Part shown: positions 4,570 through 52,024 of the stretch, piece by piece | Numbering within the stretch: the first letter of the stretch is position 1 | How the letters are laid out: every line of letters starts with the position of its first letter | Source of the DNA: Vulcanimicrobiota bacterium | GTDB taxonomy: Bacteria > Vulcanimicrobiota > Vulcanimicrobiia > Vulcanimicrobiales > Vulcanimicrobiaceae | DNA length: 64,000 nucleotides | Reading direction: 5' to 3' | NCBI GenBank assembly: GCA_003168375.1 | Contig: PMSI01000003.1 | Coordinates: 992,001 to 1,056,000 of the forward strand | Position numbers and translations under genes: made by a program | The notes under the pieces: model-generated | Database searches by the model: none | Seen by the model: the letters and a program-made list of their open reading frames with translations, nothing else | What the model was told of the DNA's origin: nothing

Positions 4570-5048
4570 TAGCTCAGCGGGACCGTCTTCTTTTCGTTGG
4601 GTGCGAAGAAGTACGTGTTCGGCGAGATGATCGTGAAGCGGATCTGCACGCTGCGGCTCGACGCGCGGTGATCGGCTGCCGGCGCGGGGACGTAGGTCGA
4701 ACCGGCGCTCGTCATGTCGACGCGCGCGTCGGCGACCAGCGCCGGGCGGAGGCGTAGCCAGACCGCCATTTGCGCGGGGACGCTGAGTGCGTAGCGGCAC
4801 GTTCCGTCCGTGTCGGTCTCCGGCTGCGTGCGTCCGATGAGGTGGTTGTCGAGCGCGTCGCGCGCTTCGACGACCAACTCGGCGCAGGTCGGACTGCGCA
4901 GGCCGGACGCTGCGTCGTGGATCGCGATCGTGCCGTTTGCCAACGCAAGTTCGCGCGCGAGCGCGGGCTGCGCGAACACGACGACTGCGATTGCGGCGAG
5001 AACACCCTTCGACAAGCTCAGGGTGACAATGGTGGGGTGGCGGCTCAC
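4566..5048 (-). CDS. Secreted hypothetical protein whose N-terminus is encoded by a dispersed repeat
   Basis: 160 residues. The first 15 residues, including VTLSLSKG, are encoded by an inverted copy of the dispersed repeat (5005-5056). They act as a positively charged n-region for the hydrophobic stretch VLAAIAVVVFAQPALA, a plausible signal peptide. There is no alternative ATG, GTG or TTG between the repeat and the hydrophobic core, so the repeat appears to supply the start codon. The mature part has two cysteines (in PTCAEL and GTCRYA) and beta-strand character; no family recognised. Convergent with the gene ending at 4569, with a four-base stop overlap. Confidence 0.6.
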   Translation of the reverse strand: MSRHPTIVTLSLSKGVLAAIAVVVFAQPALARELALANGTIAIHDAASGLRSPTCAELVVEARDALDNHLIGRTQPETDTDGTCRYALSVPAQMAVWLRLRPALVADARVDMTSAGSTYVPAPAADHRASSRSVQIRFTIISPNTYFFAPNEKKTVPLSY

Positions 5049-10369: not shown

Positions 10370-10420
10370 CTTCGATGTCATCCGGAGCTTGTCGAAGGAT
10401 CAGGATGATATTGGAGGGTG
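10370..10420. repeat. Dispersed repeat, rearranged copy
   Basis: CGCCCTTCGATGTCATCC, then GGAGCTTGTCGAAGGATCAG and GATGATATTGGAGGGTGGC: the core is present in both orientations, as in the copy at 23562-23642, and is self-complementary. Confidence 0.65.
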
Positions 10421-14307: not shown

Positions 14308-14611
14308 CGATTCCTTTGCACAGCGCGCCGGCAGGACAGAGGCGGCCGAGGTGACGTCAGGAGATCCGAGTGGCTGGGGGTTTCGTTGCGGCTGTTGTCG
14401 CCCTTCGACAGGCTCAGGGTGACAACAATTTACAACAGAAAGAGACCCCAGGAGACGCCGGGTCCGACGTTCCTTGGGTCCGCGTTATCGGCCGAAGGGC
14501 ATAGGCAGGTATTGTACCAGAGAGGCCCCGGAAACTCAAGGCGGCTCATCGCCGCTTGGTCAGGCGGCTATCTGGAGGGTTGCGCGAGCGTGACCCGATA
14601 CGGCTAGGCCG
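14308..14611. other. Divergent promoter region of rpoC and the acylase gene
   Basis: 304 bases with no gene. It must hold the rpoC promoter. It contains one dispersed-repeat core (14399-14424) about 90 bases upstream of rpoC. No conserved promoter was identified with confidence. Confidence 0.6.
14399..14424 (-). repeat. Dispersed repeat core upstream of rpoC
   Basis: CGCCCTTCGACAGGCTCAGG then GTGACA; an inverted core copy lacking a clear GCTCACC outer end. Confidence 0.75.
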
Positions 14612-23001: not shown

Positions 23002-23064
23002 CGCAGGGCACCACCCGCGTGGTTATACGATCGCTTGTAGCGAATGGCTAGATGCCTCGCCGGC

Positions 23065-23126
23065 GCTCACCTCGCGTCGCCACTTTCCCCGATGTCACCC
23101 TGAGCTTGTCGAAGGGCGAACGATCG
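23065..23126 (+). repeat. Dispersed ~62-bp repeat, full-length solo copy
   Basis: Outer end GCTCACC, middle GTCGCCAC, core GTCACCCTGAGC and TTGTCGAAGGGC, inner end GAACGATCG. One of the best-preserved copies; it is followed directly by a strong terminator hairpin. Confidence 0.88.
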
Positions 23127-23138
23127 CGACAAAAAGGA

Positions 23139-23166
23139 AGAGGCACGCTCTGCCGAGCGTGCCTCT
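23139..23166. terminator. Strong Rho-independent terminator hairpin
   Basis: AGAGGCACGCTC, loop TGCC, GAGCGTGCCTCT, a perfect 12-bp stem followed by TTGATTTT on plus and CCTTTTTG on minus. No gene ends immediately before it, so it may be the relic of a lost gene or insulate the neighbouring element. Confidence 0.8.
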
Positions 23167-23214
23167 TTGATTTTAATCGGATCATTGTCATCCTGACGCC
23201 CCAATGTCCCCCGG

Positions 23215-23642
23215 GCTCACCTCGGATCACCTACTCTCCTAATGTCACCCTGAGCTTGTCGAAGGGTGCGGTCGGCGCAGTGGTATGGCGTGAAAGACTA
23301 TTGGGTCTACATGCTGCGCTGCCGGGATGGGACATACTATGTCGGCGTCACGTCGCGCGTCGACATCCGCGTCGCGGAGCACTCGCTCGGTGTCGATCGA
23401 AGATCCTATGTTTACGGCCGCCGGCCGGTGACGCTCGTGTATTCGGAAGTCTTCCGGACGCGCTCGAGGCGATCTTCGTCGAGAAACGACTCAAGGGATG
23501 GTCGCGCGCGAAGAAAGAGGCCCTCATTCGCGGCGATTGGGACGCGATCCGAAGCTTGTCGCGATCGTTCGCCCTTCGACGTCATCCTGAGCCTGTCGAA
23601 GGATCAGGGTGACATTAGGTCAAGTGGCAGTTCGCGGTGAGC
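23215..23642 (+). mobile_element. Small element: GIY-YIG gene between ~60-bp terminal inverted repeats
   Basis: Left end 23215-23270 (GCTCACC outward, core GTCACCCTGAGC, TTGTCGAAGGG) and right end 23562-23642 (CGATCGTTCGCCCTTCGAC inward side, GGTGAGC outward) are inverted copies of the dispersed repeat. Between them lies only a GIY-YIG nuclease gene with a one-base deletion. The right repeat contains an additional nested core copy (GTCATCCTGAGC, CTGTCGAAGGAT). A 192-bp relative with the same ends and the same gene tail is at 47692-47883. Confidence 0.7.
23290..23612 (+). pseudogene. GIY-YIG (YhbQ/UvrC-like) endonuclease, frameshifted
   Basis: From the GTG at 23290 the frame reads KDYWVYMLRCRDGTYYVGVT (GIY ... 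YVG core), the helix DIRVAEH with its arginine, and VTLVYSEVF. The frame is then lost: continuing in the other frame from about 23454 gives PDALEAIFVEKRLKGWSRAK, the family's conserved C-terminal half with the catalytic glutamate. A single missing C in the run at 23453-23455 explains the shift. The last residues (SFALRRHPEPVEGSG) are encoded by the right inverted repeat, so gene and repeat are physically merged. Intact, it would be a ~107-residue single-domain nuclease. A sequencing error is possible. Confidence 0.85.
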
Positions 23643-23667
23643 TCGGGGAACGTCGCGCTACGTCGCG

Positions 23668-36747: not shown

Positions 36748-36772
36748 GTCACCCTGAGCCTGTCGAAGGGCG
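36748..36772 (+). repeat. Dispersed repeat core upstream of rpoB
   Basis: GTCACCCTGAGC then CTGTCGAAGGGCG, about 175 bases upstream of the rpoB start; mirrors the position of the copy upstream of rpoC. Confidence 0.8.
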
Positions 36773-46088: not shown

Positions 46089-46146
46089 CTCTGCGTTTCT
46101 CCTTGGCGAACACCCCGGGGGCTCCCCCCGGAACGCGGGCGCCCGC

Positions 46147-46208
46147 GCTCACCTTGAACCGCCACCCACCCCGACGTCACCCTGAGCTTGTCGAAGGGCG
46201 AACGATCG
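46147..46208 (+). repeat. Dispersed ~62-bp repeat, full-length solo copy
   Basis: GCTCACC outer end, ACCGCCACCC, GTCACCCTGAGC, TTGTCGAAGGGC, GAACGATCG inner end. Oriented toward 46209; no nuclease remnant follows. Confidence 0.88.
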
Positions 46209-46529
46209 TCACAAAAGGGACGAGGATTCAAATCCCACTCGTCGTCGCCGTGACGTCCCAGCGCGCCCGTGCTCAAGGCTTGCTGATATTTGCCGATCAC
46301 ATCGCGCAGCGGAAGCCTCTACTGATTTGATCGCCCATCCGCTGATTTAAGGCTTCGCCTACTGGTATATTCGCGTTTCCACTGATAAAATGACGAAGAC
46401 TCCCGATCATCGGACCGCTTTTCCGCGTCCGGCACGACACGAGCCAAAACACCAACCTCTACATTATCGTCACCCCGCACGTCATTCGGGCGGCGCGGTA
46501 GCGGCGCAACCGCCGCCGAAGGAGACACG
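46209..46529. other. Intergenic region holding a phased repeat
   Basis: 321 bases, AT-richer than its surroundings, no convincing gene. Contains four CTGATTT-like words spaced exactly 20 bases (46322-46395). Confidence 0.6.
46322..46395 (+). repeat. Degenerate 20-bp phased repeat, cluster 1
   Basis: CTGATTT at 46322, CTGATTT at 46342, CTGGTAT at 46362 and CTGATAA at 46382: exact 20-base spacing with diverged sequence between. Related words with the same spacing occur at 47596-47648. Confidence 0.55.
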
Positions 46530-47315
46530 ATGCGTCGAGCCGCGTTTCTCTCGCTTTCCGTGCTGACGGGCCTTCTGACTGCAAACTGCGCCGGATCGGC
46601 GCCCGCGCAGCCGGCGCCGGCCACGCACGCGCTCCCGCTCTCACGCCTCAAACAAGAGAAGTTGACAAACGCCTTCATTCAACTCACATCCGGCTCGCCG
46701 AAGCAGGCCGCCGCACGATTCCGAGCTGTGCTCGCCTCCGGAACCGACCCGCACTATCTTCTCTACAACGACGCGCTGCGCGGCGTCTTCTTGGCCGACC
46801 TCTATGCGCGGGACGACCGAGCCGCGGCTACCGATCTCGCCGCGGCCGTCACGCGAGCGGGCGGCGCCCCGGCGGGCCGCAGCGCGGCGGTGCGCGGCAT
46901 CTGGAAGGAGGCGTGGTTGGACTTCTTGCACGATGCCGAGCCGCCCGAGGCGCCTTGTTCGGATGCGACAGTTGCCGAAGGCATCCAGTTGGCGATGGCC
47001 GGACATCTCTCCGAGGCACGCTCGGCGTGGCGCCAACGAGAACGCGACGCCGGCGCGTGCAACGTCGCCTACGATCCCTTACTGTTCGCAAATGGGAGCG
47101 ACATGAAGAGCGCGCTCACCGGCGTTTCGTACCTGCAGCAAGATCGCTGGCGAGAGGCGGAGACAACGTTGATAGCGGGCGTTCTCGCCAGCCGCACAAC
47201 CTCGGGTTACACGAAGCTCTTCGCCGGAAACGTCATTGCGATGCAGATGCTGTTCGCGTATCGGGCGCATTTCGAGCGCGGGCAAGGGCATTACCACTGG
47301 CCCGTACGGATCTGA
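46530..47315 (+). CDS. Lipoprotein with TPR-like helical body
   Basis: 261 residues. Signal with lipobox-like TANC (LSVLTGLLTANC), then helical segments of TPR character: LTNAFIQLTSGSPKQAAARF, DDRAAATDLAAAVTRAG, GIQLAMAGHLSEARSAW and QQDRWREAETTLIAGVL. AAGGAGA upstream supports the ATG at 46530. Probably an envelope scaffold or assembly protein; no named family. The gene is flanked on both sides by clusters of the 20-bp phased repeat, which suggests insertion or control by the same system. Confidence 0.72.
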   Translation: MRRAAFLSLSVLTGLLTANCAGSAPAQPAPATHALPLSRLKQEKLTNAFIQLTSGSPKQAAARFRAVLASGTDPHYLLYNDALRGVFLADLYARDDRAAATDLAAAVTRAGGAPAGRSAAVRGIWKEAWLDFLHDAEPPEAPCSDATVAEGIQLAMAGHLSEARSAWRQRERDAGACNVAYDPLLFANGSDMKSALTGVSYLQQDRWREAETTLIAGVLASRTTSGYTKLFAGNVIAMQMLFAYRAHFERGQGHYHWPVRI

Positions 47316-47595
47316 TGCCGAGGCCGATTAGGAGCCAAGCGCCTCCTAACCGCAGCGTCAGCGCGCCGCTCCCCAGTTTTCGCAGCGCTTCGATCCGGCC
47401 TCGTTTTGCGGGTTGAGTAGGAGAACGAAGCTCTTTCTGTCCCATGCATCAGCTGACAAGCCCCGGACAAGGCACGGAGTTGGCCAGCGGCGCGAGCTAA
47501 CTTTGGGCTGAGGCGTCGATCGGCAAAGAGGGATTGAAGAGCACGCGTATGCACCGGGACGCCCAAGAGCGGGAACCTCGGAGATGCGGCGTCTT

Positions 47596-47648
47596 CCGAC
47601 TTAATCGGCCGCCTCCTGATTTATTCGGTCCCTTCCTGATTTATTCGT
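47596..47648 (+). repeat. Degenerate 20-bp phased repeat, cluster 2
   Basis: CCGACTTAATCGG at 47596, CTGATTTATTCGG at 47616 and CTGATTTATTCGT at 47636, spaced exactly 20 bases. An inverted CTGATTTAAG lies at 47671-47680. Confidence 0.55.
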
Positions 47649-47691
47649 GGACGAACAACGGAGCATCGCCCTTAAATCAGCAAGCCTCCGT

Positions 47692-47883
47692 GCTCACCAT
47701 AAACCGCCACCAAACCCGATGTCACCCTGAGCCTGTCGAAGGGCGAACGATCCACCCCAAAGCGGTGCGCAAGAACGAGGCGCTGACTCGCGGCGATTGG
47801 GGCACGATTCGTCGCTTCGCGCGATCGTTCGCCCTTCGACAAGCTCAGGGTGACATTAGGATGGGTGGCGATTCAGGATGAGC
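47692..47883 (+). mobile_element. 192-bp MITE-like derivative of the GIY-YIG element
   Basis: Left repeat 47692-47752 and right repeat 47822-47883 are ~62-base inverted copies with outward GCTCA ends. The 69 internal bases still encode the nuclease tail: VRKNEALTRGDWGTIRRFAR, continuing SFALRQAQG into the right repeat, homologous to AKKEALIRGDWDAIRSLSR of the element at 23215-23642. Confidence 0.75.
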
Positions 47884-47995
47884 TCGGGCGGTGTTTGAGG
47901 TCGGGCGTCGCTTTGCGCGAACGTAGCCCTGGAGCCGAAAGGTTCGGCCGATCGGCGGATGGCGGGCGACCTAGCCGAGGCGTACGATCGCCGTG

Positions 47996-49985: not shown

Positions 49986-52024
49986 TGGTTAGCCGCTCGC
50001 GCTCGCTGTTCGACCGCTCGATCCTGTTCCCCGCGATCCGCGCGTCGTTCGTCAAGCTGGACCCGCGCGTCCAGCTGCGCAACCCGGTGATGTTCATCGT
50101 CGAGGTCGGCGCCCTGGTCTCGATCTTCTACGCCTTCCGCGACGCGCGCAACGGGCAAGCATCGTTCGACATCGCGATCTCGGCGTGGCTGTGGTTCACC
50201 GTCCTGTTCGCCAACTTCGCCGAGGCGATGGCGGAGGGCCGCGGGAAAGCGCAGGCGGAGTATCTGCGGCGCACCAAGACCGACACGATCGCCCGACGTC
50301 TGGCCGATGGGCGGGAGGAGCGCGTCCCCGCGACACAGCTGCGCCGCGGCGACCGCGTCGTGGCGGAGGTCAACGACCTGATCGCGACCGACGGCGAGAT
50401 CGTGGAAGGGGCGGCGACCGTCGACGAGTCGGCGATCACCGGCGAGTCCGCACCCGTCATCCGCGAAGCGGGCGGCGACCGCTCCTCCGTCACCGGCGGC
50501 ACCCGCGTGCTGTCGGATCGTATCGTCTACGTCGTCAGCGCGAACCCCGGCGAGTCGTTCCTCGACCGCATGATCTCGTTGGTCGAAGGCGCCCGCCGCC
50601 AGAAGACCCCCAACGAGATCGCGCTCTCGATCTTGCTCTCCGGCTTGACGATCATCTTCGTGATCGCGGTCGCGACGCTGGCCCCGTTCTCGATTTACGC
50701 CGGAGCCACTCCCAGCGTCGTCGTGCTGATCGCGCTGCTGGTCTGCCTGATACCGACCACGATCGGCGGACTGCTGAGCGCGATCGGGATCGCCGGCATG
50801 GACCGCGTCCTACAGCGCAACGTGCTGGCAATGTCGGGCCGTGCCGTCGAAGCGGCCGGCGACGTCGACACGCTGCTGCTCGACAAGACCGGGACGATCA
50901 CGCTGGGCAACCGGCAGGCTACCGAGATCGTGCTCGCACTAGGCGCCGACGACACGATCGTCTACCGTTCGGCGTATTTCGCCTCGCTGGCCGATGAGAC
51001 GCCGGAGGGCCGCAGCATTGTCACGCTGAGCCTGTCGAAGGGTGCGGGTGACGGTAGCACCGTCCTGCCGGCCGGCGCGGTCGTCGTGCCGTTCAGCGCC
51101 TACACCCGCATGTCCGGCGTCGACTACGCCGACGGCTCGCAGTTGCGCAAAGGCGCCCCCGACGCGATTCGCGCCTGGATCTCGCAGAACGGCGGCGGCC
51201 GGACCGACGTGCTCGCGGCCGATGTCGACCGCATCGCGCGCGCCGGCGGCACGCCGCTCCTGCTCGCCGACCGGGGGGGCATCCTCGGCTGCATCGGGCT
51301 GCGCGACATCCTCAAGCCAAACACGCGCGTGCGCTTCGACCGCCTGCGGGCGATGGGGATTCGCACGGTGATGATCACCGGCGACAACCCGCTCACCGCC
51401 AGCGCGATCGCGCGCGAGGCCGGCGTCGACGACTTCCTCGCCGAGGCGACGCCCGAGACGAAGATGACGCTGATCAAGCGCGAGCAGAGTGAAGGCCGCC
51501 TGGTCGCCATGACCGGCGACGGCACGAACGACGCGCCGGCGCTCGCGCAAGCCGACGTCGGCGTCGCGATGAACAGCGGGACCCAGGCGGCCAAAGAGGC
51601 CGGCAACATGATCGACCTCGACTCCGATCCGACGAAGCTCATCGAGATCGTCGAGGTCGGCAAGCAGCTCCTCATGACGCGCGGCTCGCTCACGACGTTC
51701 TCGATCGCGAACGACGTCGCGAAGTACTTCGCGATCCTCCCCGCGATGTTCATCGCGGCGTATCCGGCGATGGACGCCCTCAACGTCATGCGCTTGAACC
51801 CGCACAGCGCGATCCTCTCGGCGATCATCTTCAACGCACTGATCATCGTCGCGCTGATCCCGCTCGCCCTGCGCGGCGTTCCGTACCGCCCGCGCGGCGC
51901 GGACGCCGTCCTGCGCGAGAACGTCCTGATCTACGGCCTGGGCGGGATCATCGTGCCCTTCATCGGGATCAAGGCGATCGATCTCATCCTGGGCGGCCTT
52001 CTTCACCTCACCGGAGCGAACTAA
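49985..52024 (+). CDS. kdpB: K+-transporting P-type ATPase catalytic subunit KdpB
   Basis: 679 residues; start chosen at the TAATG junction with kdpA. Catalytic features: actuator TGES (in AITGESAP), phosphorylation motif D300-K-T-G-T in [10 protein letters not shown], nucleotide-binding [18 protein letters not shown] and hinge [13 protein letters not shown]. KdpB drives high-affinity K+ uptake by ATP hydrolysis. Residues 345-353 (IVTLSLSKG) are encoded by a 22/23 match to the dispersed repeat, replacing a segment that in E. coli KdpB reads IVILAK; total length between ADETPEG and RMSG is conserved, so the protein is probably active. Confidence 0.98.
51020..51042 (+). repeat. Dispersed repeat core inside kdpB
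   Basis: GTCACGCTGAGC then CTGTCGAAGGG differs from the consensus core at one base. In frame, in the nucleotide-binding domain region. Confidence 0.75.

Follow-up and report, generated by a model that had tools for sequence, protein, structure and literature searches.

REPs are among the commonest repeats of bacteria, and one superfamily of them, that of the GTAG-REPs, has a known enzyme, the RAYT. The REP/REPIN and RAYT systems (GTAG-REPs; Bertels and Rainey 2011, PMC3116915; TnpA-REP, PMC8266576) share several properties with the repeats described here. In both, short palindromes occur in tens to hundreds of copies, the gene for one related enzyme lies between palindromes, and there are gene-less, non-autonomous copies. 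Inverted doublets at a fixed spacing, as in REPINs, are numerous in a Caulobacter genome, and two-ended units are few in the genome analysed here. However, the gene in our case is a GIY-YIG nuclease and not a Y1/HUH transposase, and the tag is TGTC/CGTC and not GTAG. The CGTC-REPs are described as having a CGTC tag, an 8-bp stem starting with AT or AC, a loop of 4-5 nt (CTTGT or GAAG) and a CCA tail (PMC3733652). The same 2013 survey (Di Nocera et al.) reports no dedicated transposase or other enzyme for them and no RAYT gene that is flanked by CGTC-REPs (PMC3733652).

The stretch analysed here, referred to as the window, consists of 64,000 nucleotides of a Vulcanimicrobiota bacterium. A sequence-only reading had placed a MITE-like deletion derivative of a GIY-YIG element at 47692-47883, with two inverted repeats around sequence that still translates as the end of the nuclease. 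The unit is indeed there, and an inverted-repeat search of the window showed each end to have been set about 4 bp too short. With the refined ends, 47688-47887, the two arms are 65 nt each, 85% complementary and 70 nt apart. The parts of the derivative are as follows.

47688 to 47752, forward strand: left terminal inverted repeat, with outer end CCGTGCTCACC, a REP core and inner part GCGAACGATC
47722 to 47742, reverse strand: REP core of the left arm (CCTTCGACAGGCTCAGGGTGA), from the core motif search
47753 to 47822, forward strand: spacer, of which about 47767-47812 is the remnant of the nuclease gene 3' end (KNEALTRGDWGTIR...)
47823 to 47887, reverse strand: right terminal inverted repeat, the inner half of which codes for 10 residues in the frame of the remnant
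47833 to 47853, forward strand: REP core of the right arm, from the core motif search

Folded as single-stranded DNA, the derivative (206 nt) forms a long hairpin of -72.2 kcal/mol (z = -10.6). The spacer aligns to the 3' end of the GIY-YIG gene at 23.5 kb over 46 columns with 82.6% identity (BLAST 1.4e-7). The score of this alignment is 50 and the best score among 2000 dinucleotide shuffles is 35 (0/2000 reach it). Translated in the frame and orientation of the nuclease, the remnant has 76% identity over the 29 residues compared (E 2e-12). It is the inverted repeat that codes for the final residues of the match (11 letters; about a dozen), and only about 15 residues (about 45 bp) match outside of the repeats; the arm thus combines the 3' end of the gene itself with a REP. 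With the ends that it has in common with other copies and the 3'-end remnant, the derivative is a genuine two-ended, internally deleted copy of the GIY-YIG element, in which most of the gene is gone and its 3' end has survived.

The full element has the following features in the window.

23057 to 23116, forward strand: extra repeat unit adjoining the full element, from the repeat search
23131 to 23174, no strand assigned: bidirectional terminator-like hairpin that recurs beside ends
23206 to 23253, forward strand: left inverted repeat, with a REP core at 23245-23265
23290 to 23579, forward strand: GIY-YIG nuclease gene, frameshifted, with 23290-23460 and 23451-23579 in different frames
23560 to 23651, reverse strand: right inverted repeat, the loop of which contains a second REP (23577-23602), i.e. 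a compound REP

The gene at 23290-23579 is the only member of its clade that was found in the 4.43-Mb genome. In a close relative (G095), which is about 94% identical to this genome (G000) in aligned stretches, the nuclease gene is open, 88% identical and at the same locus, between an isocitrate lyase-like gene and an AlkB-like gene. The derivative is also present in G095, where it is 98.7% identical over 237 bp. Since both genomes have it, the deletion is old and predates their split, barring transfer of the copy, and the present broken copy of the nuclease did not give rise to the derivative.

Window positions 47688-47923 are 98.7% identical to G095 and the DNA on either side is 93-94% identical, for which constraint, conversion or transfer are conceivable. 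The 1.4 kb at 46276-47687 (with an ORF at 46530-47315) are missing from G095, where 46275 joins straight to the left end of the derivative at 47688. The terminator-like hairpin (GAGGCACGCTC..GAGCGTGCCTC) recurs beside ends at L202, L214 and L217, and may insulate the gene or be part of a longer end.

Both units belong to a much larger population of repeats. The core CCTTCGACAAGCTCAGGGTGA has 12 copies in the window, with 0 expected, and the core CCTGAGCNTGTCGAAGG has 168 exact copies in the genome, with 0 for the reversed control pattern; the derivative unit gives 107 BLAST pieces across the genome. Apart from the full element and the derivative, the window contains the following units.

5006 to 5026, forward strand: solo REP core, from the core motif search
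10378 to 10398, reverse strand: REP core within a compound REP-like unit, from the core motif search
14402 to 14422, forward strand: solo REP core; G095 carries a compound form at the same site
36749 to 36769, reverse strand: solo REP core, from the core motif search
46140 to 46208, forward strand: single end (solo unit), 88-90% identical to the arms of the derivative
51021 to 51041, reverse strand: REP core inside a kdpB-like reading frame, read through in frame and translated TLSLSKGAG

Across the genome the repeats take the form of single cores, single ends (65-80 nt, with the common outer edge CCCGNGCTCA), arrays of ends (as in G095 C383), compound REPs in which one REP lies within the loop of another, and few two-ended units. 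There are 9 compound REPs in this genome and 5 in G095. Their interpretation as independent loop insertions was rejected as far as separate events are concerned, given that some go back to a single 52-bp compound unit that has been dispersed; several junction types nevertheless exist. Comparison of G095 C194:17600-30806 to G000 C4:1258400-1271190 shows several REP-related length differences, among them an array in G095 with units of about 42 bp.

The REP of the window reads TGTC-AYCCTGAG-CTTGT-CGAAGGRT. Its tag, stem length and CTTGT loop are those of the CGTC-REPs; unlike them, it does not have an uninterrupted stem of 8-9 bp, having two G-A mismatches as a tandem G.A/A.G (ATCCTGAG/CGAAGGAT). 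The free energy of a single REP core of the window is not unusual, so that support for the stem comes from covariation: stem pairs covary across genomes, with 86% and 96% paired compared to 66% and 69% in the best shuffles, and the outer pairs of the window REP covary over 77 hairpins. No published description of a REP of this type, with a G-A mismatched stem, was found in the open-access literature.

Further genome copies with the same ends, which the sequence-only reading had proposed to look for, do exist, namely C6:1089470-1089667, C6:1092653-1093309 and about 12 single ends of 65-80 nt. The former is a further, weaker deletion derivative; its remnant alone is weak (12/2000 shuffles reach its score), and its assignment is supported chiefly by the common ends and the common compound right end. 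The unit at C6:1092653-1093309 (L033:3654-4310) has 657 bp between two inverted 65-nt ends, carries no nuclease remnant, and contains, on the reverse strand, an antitoxin-like reading frame of about 80 aa. Target-site duplications had also been suggested as a check, and comparison of the flanks revealed none at any of the four two-ended copies. At a collinear gene junction, G095 has a single end of about 80 bp that G000 lacks, so that ends come or go as units; here, too, no target-site duplication was seen. This is the only clean presence/absence case and could be a deletion. No clean empty site was found for the derivative; the kdp upstream region is unalignable in most of the genus and the copy is present in G095. 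A single insertion event could not be read for the full element, because the aceA-AlkB gap, a hotspot, differs at several points.

The term MITE-like therefore holds in part. Similar to MITEs, the derivative has terminal inverted repeats in common with a gene-bearing copy, an internal deletion and a remnant of the parent gene. In contrast to MITEs, it has no target-site duplication, single ends and arrays are far commoner than two-ended copies, the parent corresponds to no known transposon, and the window's full copy carries a frameshift of its own. Strictly speaking, the derivative is not a MITE. A description as an element and its MITE also misses the genome-wide REP family, which is tied to GIY-YIG genes across phyla and is related to the CGTC-REPs.

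We compared the flanks of clade genes and of other genes. Protein matches were found in 70 of the 99 genomes of the same family as the window's genome, mostly from the same clade. For the clade genes of this family with enough flanking sequence, inverted repeats between the 150-bp flanks were present in 40/44 and the core motif in 36/44; for other GIY-YIG genes in the same family of genomes, both values were 0/19. In a global sample (Pseudomonadota, Bacteroidota, Chloroflexota, Ignavibacteriota, Cloacimonadota, Myxococcota and others), 56/74 clade genes had inverted flanks and 71/74 the core motif, compared to about 4% for offset positions in the same loci. Clade genes between inverted core copies occur in at least six phyla. 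Over the 99 genomes, the clade gene and at least three cores co-occur (44/52 vs 15/47, Fisher p = 1.3e-7), where the p value is only indicative since the genomes are related. The association of gene and repeat is strong. Within the open-access literature we found no published link between GIY-YIG genes and REPs, and the association appears not to have been described there previously.

The clade proteins match PF01541 over the cut-off, and Y7, Y17, R27, H31 and E65 are invariant in the intact relatives (36 sequences). With the catalytic Tyr, Tyr, Arg and Glu kept, these relatives are, as judged from their residues, members of the GIY-YIG nuclease superfamily. Neither NCBIfam nor PHROGs gave a family assignment of the clade. 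The nearest relatives with solved structures, according to a sequence profile, are the UPF0213 proteins 1zg2 and 1ywl and then, more distantly, SLX1. The UPF0213/YhbQ-type proteins and SLX1 have the GIY-YIG catalytic domain in common with the REP-linked clade, but the latter has an invariant KGWSRAKK motif, and a related non-REP clade is without flanking repeats.

Sphingomonas sp. 7/4-4 has one GIY-YIG gene between CCGTCACCCCGGCCTTGTGCCGGGGTCCACC repeats, and a protein search with this query yielded a second clade of 30 loci, mostly in alphaproteobacterial genomes. Inverted flanks were found in 24/30 of these loci vs 3/116 controls. Many of the second clade's repeats fit the published CGTC-REP definition in tag, 8-bp stem, GAAG or CTTGT loop and CCA tail. 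Examples are the right repeat of L309, CGTC-ACCCCGGA-CTTGT-TCCGGGGT-CCA, and the left repeat of L317, CGTC-ATTCCCGC-GAAG-GCGGGAAT-CCA. A tree of 171 proteins (93 columns; single forks are often weak) separates the CCTGAG clade, the CGTC clade and a REP-free clade. The flanking-repeat label changes 26 times on this tree compared to a shuffled mean of 67, and 0/200 shuffles are as low. In genomes holding two clades, each gene has its own repeat type, i.e. the repeat follows the protein. Two further genomes, Winogradskyella (G104) and Robiginitomaculum (G112), have about seven short GIY-YIG genes each, some of which adjoin other palindromes (e.g. TCATTCTGAACTTGTTTCAGAATC and GGTCGAGCGCAGTCGAGACC); this suggests further repeat types.

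The layout of REPINs around RAYTs is found in Caulobacter sp. Root1455 (G100). Among the 100 cores listed of its 144, 76 form 38 close inverted pairs, of which 33 are 55-61 bp apart and all in one orientation. The GIY-YIG gene of this genome lies between two such doublets.

The inverted ends, the internal remnant and the ends common to several copies would also be expected from a classical DNA transposon with a nuclease-like transposase, the 200-bp unit being its MITE. We consider this very improbable, given that target-site duplications are lacking and solo ends and arrays dominate; moreover, GIY-YIG enzymes are not known to have strand-transfer chemistry. As an artefact of replication or recombination, slippage and template switching could instead have multiplied palindromes and short arrays, with two solo ends falling inverted around unrelated DNA. 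The tandem arrays of ends in G095 and the exact join of G095 sequence at the left end of the derivative would be in line with such an origin. Against it, the spacer carries nuclease 3'-end sequence that is ordered and oriented correctly with respect to the right arm, and the repeats are dispersed over the genome and common to several phyla; we regard this origin, too, as very improbable.

The remaining alternative is unlikely, though less so. RAYT or IS200-type transposases would mobilise the REPs, and GIY-YIG genes would only land in or near them, for instance as REP-targeting homing genes. RAYT-REP systems are known, homing nucleases often lie within their own targets, and some core-rich genomes have no clade gene. 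Against it, the repeats stand on both sides of the gene and are inverted, the repeat type tracks the protein clade within one genome, and no RAYT gene was flanked by CGTC-REPs in the 2013 survey (PMC3733652).

Our preferred reading, which we hold to be likely, is that the derivative is a non-autonomous copy, with an internal deletion, of an element in which inverted REP-bearing ends enclose a small, single-domain GIY-YIG nuclease gene, and a member of a genome-wide REP population tied to a nuclease clade, with cutting or copying by the nuclease as the proposed activity. The wider proposal we consider rather probable: small GIY-YIG nucleases would be the enzymes dedicated to mobilising a second large REP superfamily (CGTC-REPs and their CCTGAG/CGAAGG relatives), parallel to RAYT-REP with an unrelated enzyme, and the 200-bp unit would be its non-autonomous element.

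In the mechanism that we propose, the REP, with its palindromic stem and CTTGT-type loop, would be extruded as a hairpin or cruciform, which the cognate GIY-YIG nuclease would recognise and cut. Such a structure would be a fitting substrate. The clade keeps the catalytic residues, and one of its more distant solved relatives, SLX1, cuts branched DNA. Repair of the break by the host, or capture of the released end elsewhere, would then create an additional REP, end or doublet, and gene-less copies would spread in trans, as is thought for REPINs with RAYTs. We infer the cutting of REPs by the nuclease, the copying route and the mobilisation in trans. Having no known strand-transfer activity, the nuclease would have to depend on host repair. 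The two-ended derivative has neither a complete empty site nor a target-site duplication, the clean presence/absence case concerns a single end, the remnant outside of the repeats is short, this genome has only a broken nuclease, and 14 genomes with at least five cores have no detectable clade gene (some assemblies are incomplete); these observations count against the preferred reading. REPs might also attract the nucleases and not be mobilised by them.

The best reading of the comparison is that GIY-YIG nucleases would have the role for these REPs that RAYT transposases have for GTAG-REPs. If true, this would give a likely role to many genes that are annotated only as 'GIY-YIG nuclease family protein', and the clade-by-clade pairing of GIY-YIG genes with CGTC-type REPs makes the question of the CGTC-REP enzyme directly testable on short hairpins with small purified proteins.
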